DNA of 10,759 nucleotides, taken from Planctomycetota bacterium. Its GTDB lineage: Bacteria > Planctomycetota > Planctomycetia > Pirellulales > Pirellulaceae. The notes below the pieces were generated by a model. That model was not told the DNA's origin and searched no databases. It was given only the letters and a program-made list of their open reading frames with translations. The stretch is taken from positions 1 through 10,759 of the forward strand of contig JAPLNJ010000275.1 of the NCBI GenBank assembly GCA_026692885.1, given 5' to 3'. Below, piece by piece: positions 434-9,381 of this stretch. Each line of letters opens with the position of its first letter. Positions within the stretch are counted from its first letter, which is position 1. The translations under genes and the position numbers were made by a program.

Positions 434-2116
434 TTATGGGATGATGCTTTCAGCATCAAACTTCTTCGACTCGACCTCCTTCCCGTGTTCATAACGAGTC
501 TTCTTGTATACTCGGCCATTCAGATCCAGAGCATAGTGGGTTGTCCACCCGTGTTTTTTCCCATTCAGCCAGTCCGATTCGGATTGCTTGTAAGTACTTA
601 GCCACACCACGAGATGACGTTGGTCACCATTGTGGTAGGTAGTTTCAGAGATCGGCTGAGGCGTGTTAGGAACATATTCGATCTTCTTCCCGTGTAATCG
701 TCCGTACACATAGTTGGTTTCCGCCCTTACTGGAAAACGACAGCCTTTGACAAAAGAAGGAACCTGAAGCAGTTGTCTTCCGTGTTCGTAGAGTTTCCCA
801 TCCTGACCACGATATTTCCGATTCACTTCTTGGCCAGACATTTCTTCAACTTCGTAAACTTTCTGCCCTTGCGGTCCAGTGCTATAGTCGATGTTGTTGA
901 AGTCTAGTGTGTCAAACTTCACAGTCGGATCGCCCGACAATTGTTTGTTCGGCTCGGACGCCATACCTTTTGCAGCCTTTTGCTCCACGCTCTTGGTGTC
1001 TTGCTGCTCTGAAACGGAGCTATTCTTGCCGCTTGTCGCTTCAACGAGCAACGTCGGTGCAGGGTCGGACGTGACAACATCCGACTCAGATGCTTGATTA
1101 GCAACCTCGGTGGGTCTATCTTCAAGAGATGAGAGGATTCGTTGAGCTTCTTCGGAGCGAACATCGGGAACTGCCTTGAATTTTTCAGCCTGCTTGATCC
1201 ACTTCGTGGCACTGGCGACATTCCCTAAAGAAGCCTCGTGATCGATAAGTCGTCCATAGACGGTGGGCTTCATTGAATCAGGTAACATGCCACCGCTTTC
1301 TCCAGCGACGAGGCTCTTATAGATGGCGACGGCATCCTCGTGCTTGCCTTCTTCCCAGAGGGCATTAGCTTGGTGGGCCTGTTTGTAGGCGACAGTTGTG
1401 CGGATTCCTGCGATGATCAGCGTAATCAGGAGGAAGGCAGCGAAGCATCCGAAGACGATACGTTTCGTCTTGCGGCTAATTCGAGGATGAATGCCGACCA
1501 GCACGAGCCCCACGGGCCAACAGCACAGGAAAGAGAGGCCAATCGCCAGAGGGTTCTGGAGTAGATGTCGCCAATCCACAGAGGATTGAGCAGGTTGATT
1601 CGTTTGGGTCAACTTCGGCTGCGATGAATAGGTCCGTTGTATCGCCTCAGCTTTCTGCCACTCGGCCGTTCCCTCTTGCCACACCAAGTCGGTCGGCCGA
1701 ATCTGGCCAGTCGTCACAAGCTGGCTCAACTGACCGAAATCTACGGGGCCGAACTGCGTGCCGGACTTGGTGTAGTACCATTTCTTGACCGGGGACGGCC
1801 CAACCGACGTAACGCCGGTGGGCGTCGCTTCAGCAGGGGGAGTGGTCTGCGTGGGCTGTTGGGGGGCTGCGGTTGGCGTGACCGGCGTGGAGGGTTGTGA
1901 TGGCTTGGACGCTGGCGGTGGCGGCGGTGGTGGGAGTGCCGATTTCACTGGGAATAGCTCTTTGATCATCCCCGCCTTCGTCCATTCGCCCATCCCGTCA
2001 TGCCAAACGAGGTCATTTGGCAGGAGTTGCCCCAAGGGAATCAGAGCCTTCAGTTGCGACTCAGTGACTGGGCCTTTTTGCACGCCGCCGTGAGCGTAGT
2101 ACCATTCCTGCGACAT
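434..2116 (-). CDS. Double GYF_2-domain membrane protein with MORN-like C-terminus
   Basis: This 560-residue protein starts at an ATG with a full AGGAGG eight bases upstream. Residues 4-55 and 111-160 are two GYF_2 (DUF4339-like) domains, each showing WYY, a GPV turn, a QL helix, DLVW and a closing EW. They are joined by a Pro/Thr/Ser linker (57-110) containing seven consecutive prolines. Two hydrophobic segments (about 187-209 and 219-239), separated by a short basic loop, should span the membrane. Residues 245-310 resemble a TPR-like helical hairpin (ANALWEEGKHEDAVAIY). A polar low-complexity stretch (335-400) leads to MORN-like or YwqK-like repeats at 469-551 (YGRLHGKK, WLNGKKHGW, YEHGKE). 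GYF_2 domains are common in planctomycete membrane proteins and probably bind proline-rich partners. No enzyme motif is visible, so a role in envelope scaffolding or signalling is inference. It is monocistronic as far as can be seen. Confidence 0.9.
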   Translation of the reverse strand: MSQEWYYAHGGVQKGPVTESQLKALIPLGQLLPNDLVWHDGMGEWTKAGMIKELFPVKSALPPPPPPPASKPSQPSTPVTPTAAPQQPTQTTPPAEATPTGVTSVGPSPVKKWYYTKSGTQFGPVDFGQLSQLVTTGQIRPTDLVWQEGTAEWQKAEAIQRTYSSQPKLTQTNQPAQSSVDWRHLLQNPLAIGLSFLCCWPVGLVLVGIHPRISRKTKRIVFGCFAAFLLITLIIAGIRTTVAYKQAHQANALWEEGKHEDAVAIYKSLVAGESGGMLPDSMKPTVYGRLIDHEASLGNVASATKWIKQAEKFKAVPDVRSEEAQRILSSLEDRPTEVANQASESDVVTSDPAPTLLVEATSGKNSSVSEQQDTKSVEQKAAKGMASEPNKQLSGDPTVKFDTLDFNNIDYSTGPQGQKVYEVEEMSGQEVNRKYRGQDGKLYEHGRQLLQVPSFVKGCRFPVRAETNYVYGRLHGKKIEYVPNTPQPISETTYHNGDQRHLVVWLSTYKQSESDWLNGKKHGWTTHYALDLNGRVYKKTRYEHGKEVESKKFDAESIIP

Positions 2117-3000: not shown

Positions 3001-3319
3001 CGGATGCTTTCCAGCATTGGTGATGTTCGTCAGCAGCTTTTCCAGCGTGATCGGCCCGGCTTCGGAGTGGATGCCCTTACGTTGGAAATACTCCGTTTGG
3101 GTCGCCGCTGAACAGCGTGGGTTCGTTTTCGGCGATAACCCGCTTCATGCGATCCAGGTACACCGGCTCAAAATCGGCGATGTGGCAGATCACCTGCTTG
3201 GTTGACCACTTGCCGGGGATTGGCCGGGCGTCGAGTTGTTCGGCGTTCATTCCGGCCACGGCGGCACGGAGCTTCTTTGGACCGGCAAGGTAGTCGTCGA
3301 TTAGCTGGGCGTAGTCCAT
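3001..3319 (-). pseudogene. DinB-family protein, internally deleted and frameshifted
   Basis: From ATG at 3319 (GGGAG about eight bases upstream) the frame encodes a good DinB/YfiT-like N-terminus: [18 protein letters not shown], then [16 protein letters not shown] with the characteristic histidine, then EPTLFSGDP. It stops at 3077 after 80 residues, about half the usual 150 or so. The neighbouring frame from about 3090 to 3016 encodes the family's C-terminal signature, [19 protein letters not shown] followed by TNITN. Roughly 35-40 codons of the middle are therefore missing and the two parts are in different frames. The normal ending with further histidines is also lost after TNITN. Intact relatives are metal-binding four-helix-bundle proteins of the DinB/YfiT superfamily, often thiol transferases. 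This copy is almost certainly non-functional, unless the short product has some residual role. Confidence 0.8.
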
Positions 3320-3340
3320 GTCTGTTCTCCCGTTAGCGTC

Positions 3341-3382
3341 ATCATACCGTGTTGGCGGTGGGGTGGCGGGGGCCGGTATGAT
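3341..3382. repeat. Inverted repeat upstream of the DinB remnant
   Basis: ATCATACCG (3341-3349) and CGGTATGAT (3374-3382) are a perfect 9-bp inverted repeat around a GC-rich 24-base spacer. Each arm contains TATGAT, a fair -10 hexamer. The one pointing toward the DinB remnant lies about 22-30 bases before its ATG. It may be an operator or a pair of divergent promoter elements; no matching -35 is evident. Confidence 0.5.
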
Positions 3383-3471
3383 CGGCAAGTGAATTTTGAT
3401 CGGCGGTGGCTTTGGCACGCAGCCGATGTCGATTGATGATGAGCGAGCCCGAGGAAGGTGTGACCGCTGGT

Positions 3472-5369: not shown

Positions 5370-5422
5370 GGCACCCACCGACAAGCCCCAAGGCACCCAA
5401 AAACACCTGAAAAAGGCACCCA
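5370..5422. repeat. Three 8-bp direct repeats at 22-23 bp spacing (candidate arm-type sites)
   Basis: GGCACCCA occurs at 5370-5377, 5392-5399 and 5415-5422, with start spacings of 22 and 23 bp, about two helical turns, so the copies face the same side of the DNA. On the minus strand two copies read TTGGGTGCC and the third GTGGGTGCC. They lie between the integrase start and the candidate core site at 5516, where arm-type integrase sites or an integrase operator would be expected. That role is inferred. Confidence 0.7.
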
Positions 5423-5478
5423 AATCTGTTTTACGTGCGTTTTGCACTCACGAGCAACATAGCTTAAGTGCAATAAAA

Positions 5479-5511
5479 AAGGCCACTTACGATCATGTCG
5501 TAAGTGGCCTT
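5479..5511 (-). terminator. Rho-independent terminator
   Basis: A perfect 14-bp stem (5479-5492 with 5498-5511) has a five-base loop. On the minus strand the stem is followed by a run of T (5480 down to 5475, read as A on the plus strand). It directly follows the 14-bp tmRNA 3'-end-like sequence, as a native ssrA terminator would. It now also closes minus-strand transcription coming from the toxin-antitoxin genes before the integrase. Confidence 0.85.
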
Positions 5512-5515
5512 CTAG

Positions 5516-5529
5516 TGGAGGCGGCGGGA
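5516..5529 (-). other. Candidate attachment core: tmRNA (ssrA) 3'-end fragment
   Basis: On the minus strand this reads TCCCGCCGCCTCCA, which matches from memory the 3' strand of the T stem plus acceptor of many bacterial tmRNAs, just before the terminal CCA. The TTCGA T-loop that should precede it is absent, so identity ends sharply at 5530. A 14-base fragment followed at once by a terminator, with an integrase gene alongside, is the expected remains of integration into the 3' end of ssrA. No complete ssrA is in the window. Confidence 0.5.
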
Positions 5530-5734
5530 AGGGCCGTAGGCTCCCGTCAGGTCGTCATAAGTAGCTTTCCTGAAACGACATGCGACGCGAAAAATATCTT
5601 GGAATTTTTTCGGACCCCAAAAATCAGACACGCGATAGGACATTCCCCCTTTGGTTCAGACACGTGTCTGATTTCGCGGAGCAGCCGCCGCGGGCCTCCG
5701 CCGTAAGTCGAAAGGACCCATTCCCCGTCGAAGT
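5530..5734. repeat. Intergenic gap with CAGACACG half-sites and a perfect 16-bp palindrome
   Basis: The sequence TCAGACACGTGTCTGA at 5656-5671 is its own reverse complement over 16 bp. A third copy of the half-site (TCAGACACG) lies at 5624-5632 in direct orientation, 32 bp from the palindrome's left half. The cluster sits between the antitoxin 3' end and the candidate attachment core. It may bind a dimeric regulator, an excisionase or the integrase on the other side of the core. No gene is seen in this gap. Confidence 0.75.
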
Positions 5735-6406
5735 CTATGCCGGGACAAGTTCACCCTCCTCCTCTGTCGCAAGATCGCAATCGCTACCAAGGGCGAGTTG
5801 CTCTGCCCCGCTGTTGGCAATTTCTATCCGAATGTACGGCGAATCGCTGTCAGGCGGCAGTGGCAACTTGCTCGCCGAATCCTGGATGATCTTTACCAGA
5901 TTGAAGAACGCCTCGCCAAAGAAGGCCGACACGGCCTGGGCAATCCCCTCGTCGCGGCCCGCCAAATGAGCCAAACGGTCCATCAATTGCTTGATGCAGA
6001 ACGCATGATGCTTGACCTCTTCCACGGTCGTCATCTTGCGATCACTGAAGAGGAACCCCGTGCTGTATCCCAAGGCATTGGCGTAAGCTCGCAAGTCGCC
6101 GAGCCGCATGTCATCGTCTGTGCCATTTTCGAGCTTCGAGACTCGACTCTGAGAACACTTCATCTGATCTGCGATGTCCTTTTGTGACAGGCCCTTCGCC
6201 GCTCGAAGTGCAATCAACTGCTTCACAACCCTGCGGGTTGCGATCTGAGCTTCAAATTCTTTCCGAAACTTGTCGCTCGGAGCGTTATGAGCAAGCATAT
6301 CTGAGACGCTAGAATACTTCTTTTCGGCCATCGCGATTTCCCCACAATCGTTATTCGTACTCATACGATCATTCACAGCTTCCCTGCCGCCTTTCGCGTG
6401 TGACAT
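5735..6406 (-). CDS. Xre-family HTH antitoxin (HigA-like)
   Basis: The 223-residue frame starts at ATG 6406 with GGAG five bases ahead, 30 bases after the toxin stop. A second plausible start at 6331 (198 residues, GGGGA upstream) cannot be excluded. Residues 62-117 form a clear lambda-repressor/Xre helix-turn-helix (LIALRAAKGLSQKDIADQM, then CSQSRVSKLENG, then LGDLRAYANALGY). The preceding 40-60 is a charged helical segment. The 100-residue C-terminal extension (about 125-223), ending in an acidic tail, is longer than in minimal HigA proteins. The order toxin first, antitoxin second is that of higBA modules, in which the antitoxin neutralises the toxin and represses the shared promoter. Function is inferred from domain and pairing. 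Confidence 0.85.
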   Translation of the reverse strand: MSHAKGGREAVNDRMSTNNDCGEIAMAEKKYSSVSDMLAHNAPSDKFRKEFEAQIATRRVVKQLIALRAAKGLSQKDIADQMKCSQSRVSKLENGTDDDMRLGDLRAYANALGYSTGFLFSDRKMTTVEEVKHHAFCIKQLMDRLAHLAGRDEGIAQAVSAFFGEAFFNLVKIIQDSASKLPLPPDSDSPYIRIEIANSGAEQLALGSDCDLATEEEGELVPA

Positions 6407-6436: not shown

Positions 6437-6829
6437 TCAACCTCCCTCCGAATCCGACTTCCTTTCTCCTTCCTCTTGCTTCAAGAGCCCTGCTACGAAT
6501 TCCCGGCTGAACTTGATATCCGCTCCCTGCGAACTCTTGTCGCCAACGGTGATCAGATGAAGCGTCCGCGAATCAACGTCGGGATAGACGTACAGCCTGG
6601 TCTGTTTGAGCCCGGCACCAGGACCGGACTGATCCACCGCCACCACGCCCGAGGGCTCCGGATGAACGAAGCCCGCCTGAGCCGCGGACTGAGGAGTGCC
6701 TCCCATACACAAAGACCTGTGGAACGTGCTCAAGTTGTCGAGCATGTTCTTGAGTTCCCGATGGTACTTCTTTGGCCACTTCCTCTGTTTCTTGTCGAAC
6801 TCGCCAGTCGGTTGTAAGGCCCACATCAT
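6437..6829 (-). CDS. RelE/HigB-like toxin of a type II toxin-antitoxin pair
   Basis: The 130-residue product has a basic N-terminal helix region (KKQRKWPKKYHRELKNMLDN, residues 13-32). A C-terminal core (78-115) reads RLYVYPD, then LHLITVGDKSSQGADIKFS. The R-L-Y strand followed by a hydrophobic strand and GDK-Q-DI is the usual end of RelE/HigB-fold mRNA interferases, and size fits. R78, K98 and D105 are conserved-looking positions. A Ser/Lys/Glu-rich tail overhangs the core. The start is uncertain: ATG ATG at 6829-6824 overlaps a perfect TATAAT (6833-6828, minus strand), with TTGCTT 19 bases further upstream, so either the promoter match is accidental, the message is essentially leaderless, or translation begins further in. 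It is followed by the Xre gene after 30 bases. Confidence 0.78.
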   Translation of the reverse strand: MMWALQPTGEFDKKQRKWPKKYHRELKNMLDNLSTFHRSLCMGGTPQSAAQAGFVHPEPSGVVAVDQSGPGAGLKQTRLYVYPDVDSRTLHLITVGDKSSQGADIKFSREFVAGLLKQEEGERKSDSEGG

Positions 6830-6966: not shown

Positions 6967-7019
6967 CATCAATGCTCATGCGTCGAGTGGCGATTGTTCG
7001 GTTTTACTGGCCGTGGAAG

Positions 7020-7047
7020 TGGAGGTGCTGCAAATCGAACCCGCGTC
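7020..7047 (-). other. Degenerate tmRNA/tRNA 3'-end-like segment
   Basis: On the minus strand, GACGCGGGTTCGAT (7047-7034) is an exact-looking tmRNA/tRNA T-arm 5' strand and T-loop. It is followed by ten altered bases and then CCTCCA, the acceptor end. The T stem cannot pair (GCGGG opposite TGCAG), and no anticodon arm, tag reading frame or 5' domain is visible upstream. It is therefore not a working tRNA or ssrA. It aligns with the fragment at 5516-5529 in the same orientation, so it may be another scar of the same attachment site. Chance similarity is possible. Confidence 0.35.
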
Positions 7048-7458
7048 GTGATACTTCCGGTACGGAGCCCGCACCCCTCGACCCCGCCAGCCGCTCGCAG
7101 CCTGCGTCCTGGACCAAGGGGCCATCGTCGGCCGCCAGGTACCTGAGGAAGCGAGGGGGCCACGCCTGTGCCTGATCCACGCCAACGCAGTCGGGAACGC
7201 CCCGTGCCTCGCCGTTGCCGCCCCCTCTATGCCCGTGTCATCGCCGCGAACTGGCCCTCGGCTGCCGAAATGCCGGCCGTTGCCCCTGGACGTTGCAGAT
7301 TTGCAGATTTGCAGTTTGACGGAGCGGTGCTTGCCACGACGGCCTGAAAAATCTTTGGCTGCGGCATCTTGACTAAGCGTCGGCAGGCGATAAAATTTCC
7401 ACTGTCATTGTTGATCTTCTTTACGGTCAGATGACGTGTTTCTGGTCCTCGTCGGATT
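7048..7458. other. GC-rich stretch without a supported gene
   Basis: The first 240 bases are notably GC-rich and open in several frames on the minus strand, but none has a recognisable motif, good start or ribosome binding site. The rest is lower in GC and contains a short tandem repeat at 7295-7317. I see no RNA gene or promoter I can defend. Confidence 0.5.
7295..7317. repeat. Tandem GCAGATTT repeat
   Basis: GCAGATTT occurs at 7295-7302 and 7303-7310, followed by a partial third copy (GCAGTTT) at 7311-7317, giving an exact 8-bp period. A different 8-bp-period array lies after the AAA+ gene at 9015-9036. Function unknown. Confidence 0.7.
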
Positions 7459-7832
7459 GGATTAGTGTGTCTGGTTTCGGTGAGCCACTACTAGTGGAGA
7501 CCGAGATCTAAATGTGATGGTATGGGGCAATGGAATGCCCTAGTGGCTTGGTTCGGTTAGACGCCGGACTTGGCCGTAGCACACTAATTTAGGAGGGTGG
7601 CGGGAGGTTGAGAACCTTGCGTGGAACGCATGCGGTTCTTGAACTCCTTAGGCCAACCAAATGGACGATTCGACGTATCGAAATTTGCGACATGTGTTCG
7701 CCTACGGTCTGCTGTTCTGCGGTGGCTCCGCATGGAGCCTCGACATAGCGGCTTCTTTGACCTCGATACGTCCCGCAGTGAGTCGCCTGTGCGGCATGAA
7801 TGAGCCGCCCCAAATTCTATGGGGTGGCATGC
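7459..7832 (+). ncRNA. Candidate structured non-coding RNA upstream of the AAA+ gene
   Basis: The region folds by eye into several domains. A long-range helix, ATTAGTGTG (7461-7469) with CACACTAAT (7580-7588), extends by G-U pairs to about 12 bp and encloses hairpins at 7473-7508 and 7523-7542. A hairpin at 7602-7648 has 14 pairs with one mismatch, plus an inner 5-bp stem with a GGA loop. A perfect 10-bp long-range helix joins 7672-7681 and 7763-7772 and encloses a GGCTCC/GGAGCC stem (7724-7739). Further stems are 7773-7777 with 7790-7794 and a 9-bp stem 7804-7812 with 7820-7828. The wobble pairs I used are G-U only on the plus strand, matching the direction of the AAA+ gene, though I looked for them that way. 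It lacks the conserved cores of RNase P RNA, tmRNA, SRP RNA or group II domain V. An in-frame extension of the AAA+ gene through this region has no conserved motif. Confidence 0.45.
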
Positions 7833-7921
7833 ACCCGCCCGAATGCGGCGTGAGTGACACACCCAATCGACAAACAGGCAGCGAAATATCTGCCTCCTCG
7901 TCGAGGTGTGGAAAAACTTTC

Positions 7922-7936
7922 GGCCGAATTTCGGCC
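7922..7936 (+). promoter_or_regulatory. Hairpin just before the AAA+ ribosome binding site
   Basis: GGCCGA (7922-7927) pairs perfectly with TCGGCC (7931-7936) around an ATT loop. The stem ends three bases before the GGAGA Shine-Dalgarno sequence (7940-7944). It could tune ribosome access or be the last helix of the candidate RNA upstream. Confidence 0.5.
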
Positions 7937-7951
7937 AATGGAGAATTTACG

Positions 7952-8995
7952 ATGTTTGTTGAATCTTGTGTTTCGAATGTTGTTGAAGTTGAAACGATTG
8001 AAGGTCTGTCGTTGTCGGCGGAGGGCCTGGAATACGCCGAAAAGATCGAGGAACAAGGAATTGTGAAGAAGGCCGGCGAGTTGGGCTTATCGGCCGAGGA
8101 TCAGGGGCACCTCGACGCGTTCGAGCTGCAACTCGATTTTATCCGCGACCGAACCACGGAGGCGACAAAGAAAGTCCTGAACGGAGTGCTCATATTTGGA
8201 CGCCCGGGCACTGCCAAAACCCATACGGTCGAGGCAACTTTGAACGAGATGAAGGCGTCCTGGAAGGGATGGAACTCCCGAATCAGCCCGATGGGGCTGC
8301 ATTGCATGATGAAGGAAAACGCGGACGGCGTGATCGTGGTCGACGACGTGGCCACGCTCTGTAGCAATAAGGCCGCAGTCCAGGTGCTTCTCGCCGGCTT
8401 GGGCGGTGAGCCGGGGAAACCGCGGATGGTGACCTACGCGACCAAGACCGACCGGTCCGCGTTCGAGTTCACGGGGTCCTTTATCATCATCGCTAACCTG
8501 CTGCCGCGACGCGACCCAATCACGGACGCGTTGATCAGCAGGGTGCGGCTCCTGGAACACGAGCCCACCGACGAAATGGTCGCGGCCTTCATGCGTGCGA
8601 AAGCGTTAAGGGGGTACAAGGACGTCACCCCTGCGGAAGCACTGGAGGTGGTGGAGTTCGTGATCACCGAGGCCCGAAACGCCGAGCACCGGCTTGACCT
8701 CCGGCACATGACGGCCGGGTGGGAGGACTACGCCTACTGGAAGTCGGGCGAGAGTCGGCACATTTGGCAGACACTGGTCAGGTCCGGCATGAGAAAAACC
8801 GCCAACGACAATCAAAGCGTTCCGGTACGACGTGCCGACCGCAAACAGTGGGAACAGGACATCGCCGAGGGCCTATTCAATCAATTTCCCGATGACCGGA
8901 CTCAGCGAGAACAACAGTGGGTCTCGCTGACGGGAAAGGCTTCCGCCTCGCTTTACCGACGTCGGCGAGAACTGGAGGTAGCGGGGCAGGTTTAG
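7952..8995 (+). CDS. Stand-alone AAA+ family ATPase
   Basis: The ATG at 7952, seven bases after GGAGA, gives 347 residues. The frame is open a further 97 codons upstream, but that part is the hairpin-rich region and has no conserved character. Visible motifs are Walker A GRPGTAKT (83-90), Walker B GVIVVDD (126-132), a sensor-1 strand FIIIANLLP with N182, and LISRVRLL (195-201) as a likely arginine-finger or second-region motif. LRHMTAGWED (250-259) resembles sensor 2. The lysine, threonine and acidic residues needed for ATP binding and hydrolysis are present. A basic C-terminal segment (about 293-347) ends in SLYRRRRELEVAG, a winged-helix-like DNA-binding tail. Such proteins occur in phages and mobile elements as helicase loaders or DNA-remodelling ATPases; I cannot tell which. 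The next gene is 386 bases away beyond a terminator, so it appears transcribed alone or with the upstream RNA. Confidence 0.88.
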   Translation: MFVESCVSNVVEVETIEGLSLSAEGLEYAEKIEEQGIVKKAGELGLSAEDQGHLDAFELQLDFIRDRTTEATKKVLNGVLIFGRPGTAKTHTVEATLNEMKASWKGWNSRISPMGLHCMMKENADGVIVVDDVATLCSNKAAVQVLLAGLGGEPGKPRMVTYATKTDRSAFEFTGSFIIIANLLPRRDPITDALISRVRLLEHEPTDEMVAAFMRAKALRGYKDVTPAEALEVVEFVITEARNAEHRLDLRHMTAGWEDYAYWKSGESRHIWQTLVRSGMRKTANDNQSVPVRRADRKQWEQDIAEGLFNQFPDDRTQREQQWVSLTGKASASLYRRRRELEVAGQV

Positions 8996-9014
8996 CCGCA
9001 GATTCTCAGTTTTT

Positions 9015-9036
9015 CACTTTTGCACTTTCTCACTTT
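9015..9036. repeat. CACTTT repeated three times at 8-bp period
   Basis: CACTTT begins at 9015, 9023 and 9031. GCACTTT (9022-9028) can also pair with AAAGTGC (9042-9048). The array lies between the AAA+ stop codon and its terminator. Function unknown; its 8-bp period matches that of the array at 7295-7317. Confidence 0.6.
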
Positions 9037-9049
9037 GCTGGAAAGTGCC

Positions 9050-9091
9050 AAACGCCCCCGGCTCCCGACCACGGGACCGGGGGCGTTTCTT
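9050..9091 (+). terminator. Strong Rho-independent terminator after the AAA+ gene
   Basis: A 12-bp stem pairs 9050-9061 with 9077-9088, very GC-rich with A/T ends. Inside it an inner TCCCG/CGGGA stem has an ACCA loop and one bulged C. It is followed by a short T-rich tract. Because A residues also precede the stem, it may work in both directions. It lies about 55 bases after the AAA+ stop and separates that gene from the next operon. Confidence 0.85.
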
Positions 9092-9095
9092 TTGG

Positions 9096-9381
9096 CCCAC
9101 CTTCGCCCTGCTGTTTCGCCGTCCGCCCATGGCCGCGATGGGCGAGCCACTCCGATCAAGTCCCCGTCTCGGCTGGCGACGGCGAGCCTACCGCGGGGCC
9201 GAATCCGGCAGTACTGGACCCGCGGCATATCGCCGATGCGGTAGGGCGATCCTGGCGGGCAGGCCGGTTGCCAAGCGGGCGTTTTCGGCCCATCATGGTG
9301 ATCGGCGTCCCGGCACCAGACGGCGACCGGCCGATGTGCCCCCGGTTTCCCAGAATCCCAACCAGCACTGGAGAACACACC
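9096..9381. other. Gap holding the upstream region of the second plus-strand operon
   Basis: No gene is supported. The frame of the following gene stays open through it but has no start with a ribosome binding site and no motif. A 6-bp inverted repeat, GCCCAT with ATGGGC, lies at about 9125-9143. The promoter of the downstream genes is expected here but I cannot point to clear -35 and -10 hexamers. Confidence 0.4.

Follow-up and report, generated by a model that had tools for sequence, protein, structure and literature searches.

The window analysed here, 10,759 nucleotides of planctomycete DNA, is probably a whole contig, the length listed for the contig of its own ATPase being identical, and the region discussed below probably lies on a planctomycete mobile element. 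The genes that frame the region of interest are these:

434–2116, minus strand: gene for a GYF_2-domain protein (Pfam)
3077–3418, minus strand: DinB-like ORF, matching only positions 6–58 of a 128-position Pfam model
Between the DinB-like ORF and the HTH gene, minus strand: ORF of 644 aa, a tyrosine recombinase by eye, for which the libraries give a weak HTH match only
5735–6406, minus strand: HTH regulator gene (library matches)
6437–6829, minus strand: ORF of 130 aa, toxin-like by gene order alone, with no family match
7952–8995, plus strand: gene for a phage-type AAA+ ATPase of 347 aa (homologues, AlphaFold model, Foldseek)

The 130-aa ORF followed by the HTH gene has the gene order of a toxin–antitoxin pair, which no library confirms. 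The DinB-like ORF adjoins the recombinase-like gene and was possibly cut by insertion of the element, and 3′ of the ATPase gene there are further ORFs without assignment. A perfect 14-bp hairpin (AAGGCCACTTACGA/TCGTAAGTGGCCTT, 5-nt gap) at 5479–5511, in the stretch separating the HTH gene from the recombinase-like gene, is possibly a bidirectional terminator, and a strong GC-rich hairpin at about 9050–9088, directly 3′ of the ATPase gene and followed by a T-rich stretch, is likely the terminator of that gene. The leftward HTH and toxin-like ORFs are separated from the ATPase gene by a 1.1-kb gap, within which sits the structured region at 7459–7832.

The initial annotation had described this region as a possible structured RNA containing two perfect long-range inverted repeats and two substantial hairpins, and all four are present. 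The repeats are ATTAGTGTG/CACACTAAT (9 bp; 7461–7469/7580–7588, span 128) and GACGTATCGA/TCGATACGTC (10 bp; 7672–7681/7763–7772, span 101), and the fold contains both the hairpin with 14 pairs and one mismatch, within 7598–7655, and, on the plus strand, the 9-bp hairpin GCCGCCCCA/TGGGGTGGC at 7804–7828. The structural observation is therefore confirmed, and the fold and repeats divide the region into four domains, preceded by a promoter-like site:

7369–7396, plus strand: promoter-like site TTGACT-16-TAAAAT (consensus scan, 10 of 12 positions)
7457–7592, plus strand: domain I, a 14-bp closing helix (10 Watson-Crick and 4 G-U pairs) enclosing three hairpins (fold)
7473–7508, 7523–7542 and 7545–7575, plus strand: the hairpins of domain I (fold)
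7598–7655, plus strand: domain II, a long hairpin of 14 pairs and one mismatch with additional outer and inner pairs (fold)
7672–7772, plus strand: domain III, a perfect 10-bp closing helix with smaller stems within (repeat and fold)
7804–7828, plus strand: domain IV, a 9-bp hairpin (fold)

Domain I includes the perfect repeat at 7461–7469/7580–7588, and the pair probabilities of the two long helices, when folded in the whole putative leader, are 0.89–0.99 and 0.80–0.89. An alternative 8-bp pairing (7483–7490/7541–7548) is 11 kcal/mol worse than the fold. A 19-nt near-repeat (6431–6449/7599–7617) is one among 17 similar pairs in the window.

Two repeats of this kind (at least 9 bp, span up to 130) arise in just 6 of 2000 dinucleotide shuffles (mean 0.06). 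The plus-strand fold of 7440–7850 has an energy of −175.9 kcal/mol (z −4.6), which none of 100 shuffles equals, and four sets of 20 shuffles put 7459–7832 at z values between −5.0 and −5.8; equal-length control stretches reach −4.0 or lower in 4 of 225 cases and −4.5 or lower in 2 of 225. Domain I by itself has a z of −5.7, a value that is inflated because its borders (7454–7594) were picked once the fold had been seen. A blind 141-nt slide across the region gives a best z of −4.0, a level of −4 or lower being found in 11 of 746 control windows, and windows with equally low or lower values lie within 2251–2450, 5401–5550, 7801–7950 and 8951–9200, of which 5401–5550 and 8951–9200 contain plain palindromic hairpins. 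From the blind slide and these other places we conclude that 7459–7832 is unusual but not unique; the view that its density of stems exceeds chance thus stands for the repeats and for the region taken whole, and less strikingly for the blind slide.

We find no recognisable homologue of the region in the collections searched, and because of this no covariation score can be given. BlastN against plasmids and phages yields no match, a DNA search of nine genomes with ATPase relatives gives matches at E ≥ 0.08 only, and a search of 130 Planctomycetia genomes reaches E ≤ 0.1 in 13 of them, with matches of 19–47 nt and a best E-value (0.008) at chance level. Two single-sequence covariance models were also used, R1 for domain I and R2 for domains II–III. 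R1 matches 4 of 397 genomes of the class at E ≤ 1 and 1 of 392 genomes of the phylum at E ≤ 0.1, which is no more than chance since there is one E-value per genome, and R2 matches none of the 397 at E ≤ 0.1; with no positive control outside the window for either model, these empty results carry little weight. The individual R1 matches include one with many broken pairs that by eye resembles coding DNA (L050), two that lack whole hairpins (L075, L051) and two that are partial (L052, L053); over 32 loci of a second RNA, described below, R1 gives a single weak match of 61 nt (L118, E 0.055). Patterns built from stem pairs find three and three stretches in viral contigs, whose likeness on folding ends at the stem, and an 18-base pattern has no match in the search. 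Two IMG/VR contigs, L070 (2347–2481) and L071 (76–211), contain common ATTAGTGTGGT...ACCACACTAAT repeats about 135 nt apart, and these stretches resemble each other but share with the window only the stem. Another locus, L013, aligns with the domain II hairpin at 72% over 68 nt; since by eye this part of L013 is the minus-strand end of an IS3-type transposase, while the window ORF has no match in Pfam, we take the similarity as chance. Short matches also cluster at 7694–7722, and the alignment of three loci there shows what looks like unrelated sequence.

These results bear on the simplest alternative, that the region is palindromic debris left by chance or decay in an unselected intergenic stretch. 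It accords with the lack of a homologue in the collections searched, with the other stretches of the window that fold equally well, and with the control windows that reach the blind-slide score; against it stand the rarity in shuffles of two perfect 9–10 bp repeats and the whole-region z values, which lie below what nearly all control stretches attain. We regard this explanation as unlikely, though it is a genuine contender.

The ATPase encoded downstream has a Pfam AAA match below the cut-off only, and a protein search finds at least 89 homologues besides itself; of ten named records holding relatives, all but one, which carries the label Bacteroidales, are planctomycete. Its AlphaFold model (mean pLDDT 88.5) matches AAA+ proteins, the solved structures matched being RuvB, clamp loaders and NorQ with TM-scores of about 0.3–0.45 by query length; a sequence search of solved structures gives one meaningless match, to dynein (E 0.096). 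The best viral-model matches are uncultured Caudovirales phage proteins, with an nrdC.10 protein at rank 6, and the only PADLOC results are HTH-type matches and, for the ATPase, a weak hit to mad8 (E 0.002). Searches of plasmids and phages find no relatives, and in viral contigs none is found with the single sequence and one with an alignment. Matches occur in 52 of 397, 2 of 45 and 5 of 102 genomes, all of them sharing 49% or less with the window protein. The relatives compared at the locus level have identities of at most 49%; the nearest listed (58%) lies outside that set.

It had been suggested that the RNA could be a partner of this ATPase, and the relatives' loci speak against this. Over 34 related-ATPase loci R1 finds no credible copy, since it hits only 38 nt of L045 (22 bits, E 0.004), by appearance an ordinary hairpin, and R2 has no match over 22 such loci, some of them overlapping. 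Of 102 windows upstream of relatives, three have z values of −4 or lower (L045, L043 and L003), and that of L043 overlies a tRNA-Ser gene. The absence of a recognisable copy from 34 loci therefore counts against a partner RNA, and at the divergence sampled, where a diverged copy could be missed, the RNA would appear to be no general companion of this ATPase family.

To assess the strand, the region was folded without G-U pairs and the mismatches flanking the helices were counted. There are 14 G·T and 1 A·C mismatches, and 4 of 400 shuffles are at least equally skewed; because the shuffles themselves lean to G·T (mean 7.3 versus 2.3, or 76% of G·T plus A·C), the signal amounts to only about 1 in 100. 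The G·T excess thus gives modest support to a plus-strand RNA over a DNA structure, and bears out to that extent the lean to the plus strand noted at the outset. Good folding is seen on the minus strand as well (z −4.0; domain I −4.5). As for coding content, of which the initial annotation saw none that was credible, nine ORFs within and around the region have no Pfam match, and protein searches find no homologue for the minus-strand 92-aa ORF (7584–7862) or for a 97-aa in-frame extension of the ATPase ORF (7661–7951). An Rfam search had been proposed as a check; at the gathering cut-off Rfam 15 has no match in the window, and over 7300–8000 none of its families matches even at E ≤ 5. There is no tRNA signal for the region. 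No plus-strand terminator-like site occurs within 7000–8000, and the region thus lacks the intrinsic terminator that a transcription attenuator would combine with a mutually exclusive antiterminator. The promoter-like site is the only one in 7000–8000 against a mean of 0.3 in shuffles, and hence weak.

Given the significance of the fold, the G·T excess, the ORFs without Pfam match or homologue and the lack of an Rfam match, 7459–7832 is likeliest a plus-strand structured RNA. Of the roles first proposed for such an RNA, that of ATPase partner is not supported and that of a cis-regulatory leader reads best. Specifically, we tentatively favour a four-domain RNA that would serve the ATPase operon of an integrative phage-like element as a long 5′ leader of about 550 nt, a reading that we put somewhat short of an even chance. 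It is the simplest model because there is a promoter-like site upstream, no plus-strand terminator-like site follows and the orientation is that of the ATPase gene. Transcription would start near 7400, and the transcript would pass through the domains and, since no terminator-like site intervenes on that strand, run on into the ATPase gene; the domains may regulate or shield the message, for instance through a bound protein or a second RNA. The analysis shows a fold beyond chance, a modest lean to the plus strand, no sign of coding, no terminator-like site on that strand and the order of the genes; that the region is transcribed, joined to the ATPase message or regulatory is inferred. The neighbours, a phage-type AAA+ fold and an HTH regulator, favour a leader on a phage-like element; the lack of homologues and covariation, the well-folding minus strand, the weak promoter-like site and the ATPase relatives without a copy weigh against it. 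If it is real, a planctomycete mobile element carries a structured RNA of considerable size, and such elements are, to our knowledge, a setting little explored for RNA.

The same fold could instead belong to an independent noncoding RNA of the mobile element, whose 3′ end, formed by processing or termination, would lie before the ATPase gene and which would act in trans or as part of a ribonucleoprotein. A multi-domain fold lying in a 1.1-kb gap, and showing no tie to the ATPase family as sampled, is what such an RNA might look like, but the absence of a terminator-like site on its strand and of any relative makes this doubtful. Improbable is a new multi-domain RNA class of planctomycete integrative elements that would team up with proteins of the element itself (the phage-type AAA+ ATPase or other products of the operon), acting as a riboregulator or a ribonucleoprotein. 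It is also improbable that the fold is that of single-stranded DNA in a DNA element, such as a replication origin or a site of transfer or recombination: both strands fold significantly and the contig has an ATPase and an ORF that is by eye a tyrosine recombinase, but a DNA hairpin does not require the G·T excess, direct repeats within 7300–8000 are two-copy families only, the recombinase-like gene is about 2 kb away, and no Rep or relaxase family is among the matches of the proteins scanned. That the region encodes protein, in either of the two frames searched, is very hard to credit, for although both are open they lack Pfam matches and homologues, and tblastn matches to relatives begin at residues 32–77 of the 347-aa ATPase, well inside it.

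Returning to the preferred reading of 7459–7832 as a leader RNA, it is instructive to set beside it another region of the same contig. The scan of low-energy places flagged 2251–2450, and minus-strand 2280–2445 folds with a z of −5.9. With a cut-off of E ≤ 0.01, a DNA search finds the RNA at 2276–2467 on the minus strand at 53 places, which belong to 35 of the 128 Planctomycetia genomes searched (four places in one genome); the strongest match is 82% over 191 nt. The 35 strongest places (22 genomes) were taken as loci and 18 weaker ones left out; an alignment of 34 rows, A4 (the window and 33 loci), was the source of covariance model R3. R3 matches all 35 loci and the window at 122–201 bits, giving 36 aligned copies, scores that are no independent test because 34 of the 36 were its training set. 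With the structure taken from the window fold, 30 of 51 pairs in A4 change on both sides, and covariation amounts to 164 cells against 53.5 in shuffled alignments, with none of 500 shuffles as high. In A5, an alignment fitted to the structure, the figures are 208 and 60.3, and shifting the partners by 1–3 columns cuts the paired cells from 89.5% to 35–53%; of the nine helices, two are a poor fit, with 53% and 75.5% of their cells paired. With this strong covariation, 2276–2467 is a conserved structured RNA that is better supported than 7459–7832.

RNAalifold on A5 extends the closing helix by a strongly covarying segment, in which, for example, columns 39 and 184 pair as 11 GC, 11 CG, 9 AU and 5 UA with none broken, and continues it into a pairing of 5′ CTGCTTC with GGAGCGG. 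GGAGCG is at once the 5′ arm of a terminator-like hairpin (GGAGCG...CGCTCC, with a T run after it), which makes the two pairings mutually exclusive: the closing helix is predicted to take this arm from the terminator of the same RNA, as in an antiterminator/terminator pair. The CTGCTTC arm hardly varies, so that compensatory changes scarcely back its pairing (2 cells in one of its pairs), and on A4 RNAalifold pairs CTGCTTC with GAAGCAG instead, a third competing partner. By a mechanical ORF test, 31 of the 36 copies are followed by an ORF of at least 80 aa starting within 200 nt, and 14 have an ATG 11–36 nt past the match. GYF_2 scores above the cut-off in 5 of 21 downstream proteins scanned (those of the window, L094, L097, L104 and L114), the L104 protein having a PrsW protease domain beside it; the others have weak zinc-ribbon, TPR-like or other weak matches, or nothing. 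The RNA thus looks like a candidate transcription attenuator or riboswitch.

Rfam has no match over 2276–2467 in the window and none at the gathering cut-off in 8 of the 35 loci. In the part of the literature surveyed, one paper bears on this RNA (Weinberg et al. 2010, PMC2864571), a table of which lists 'Rhodopirellula-1', from Proteobacteria and Planctomycetes, as ambiguous in RNA status, probably cis-regulatory and without an Rfam accession. The RNA at 2276–2467 might be 'Rhodopirellula-1', and 7459–7832 could in principle likewise be an already listed motif. With its many copies, strong covariation and predicted competition between closing helix and terminator, the RNA at 2276–2467 matters more than the region at 7459–7832, and it is a directly testable candidate cis-regulatory RNA of Planctomycetia.

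GOLLD, ROOL and HEARO are large ornate RNAs of phages and mobile elements. The region at 7459–7832 resembles them as a multi-domain RNA beside phage-like genes, and differs in having neither an Rfam match nor relatives that we could find. Like the structured 5′ leaders and attenuators found in bacterial operons, the region precedes a gene of the same orientation and has a promoter-like site ahead; unlike them, it lacks a plus-strand terminator-like site, and its alternative pairing is costly. The minus-strand RNA at 2276–2467 is distinct from it, R3 scoring at most 2.1 bits over 7000–8000 with filters off, but the two are alike in being structured and in preceding a gene of this contig.
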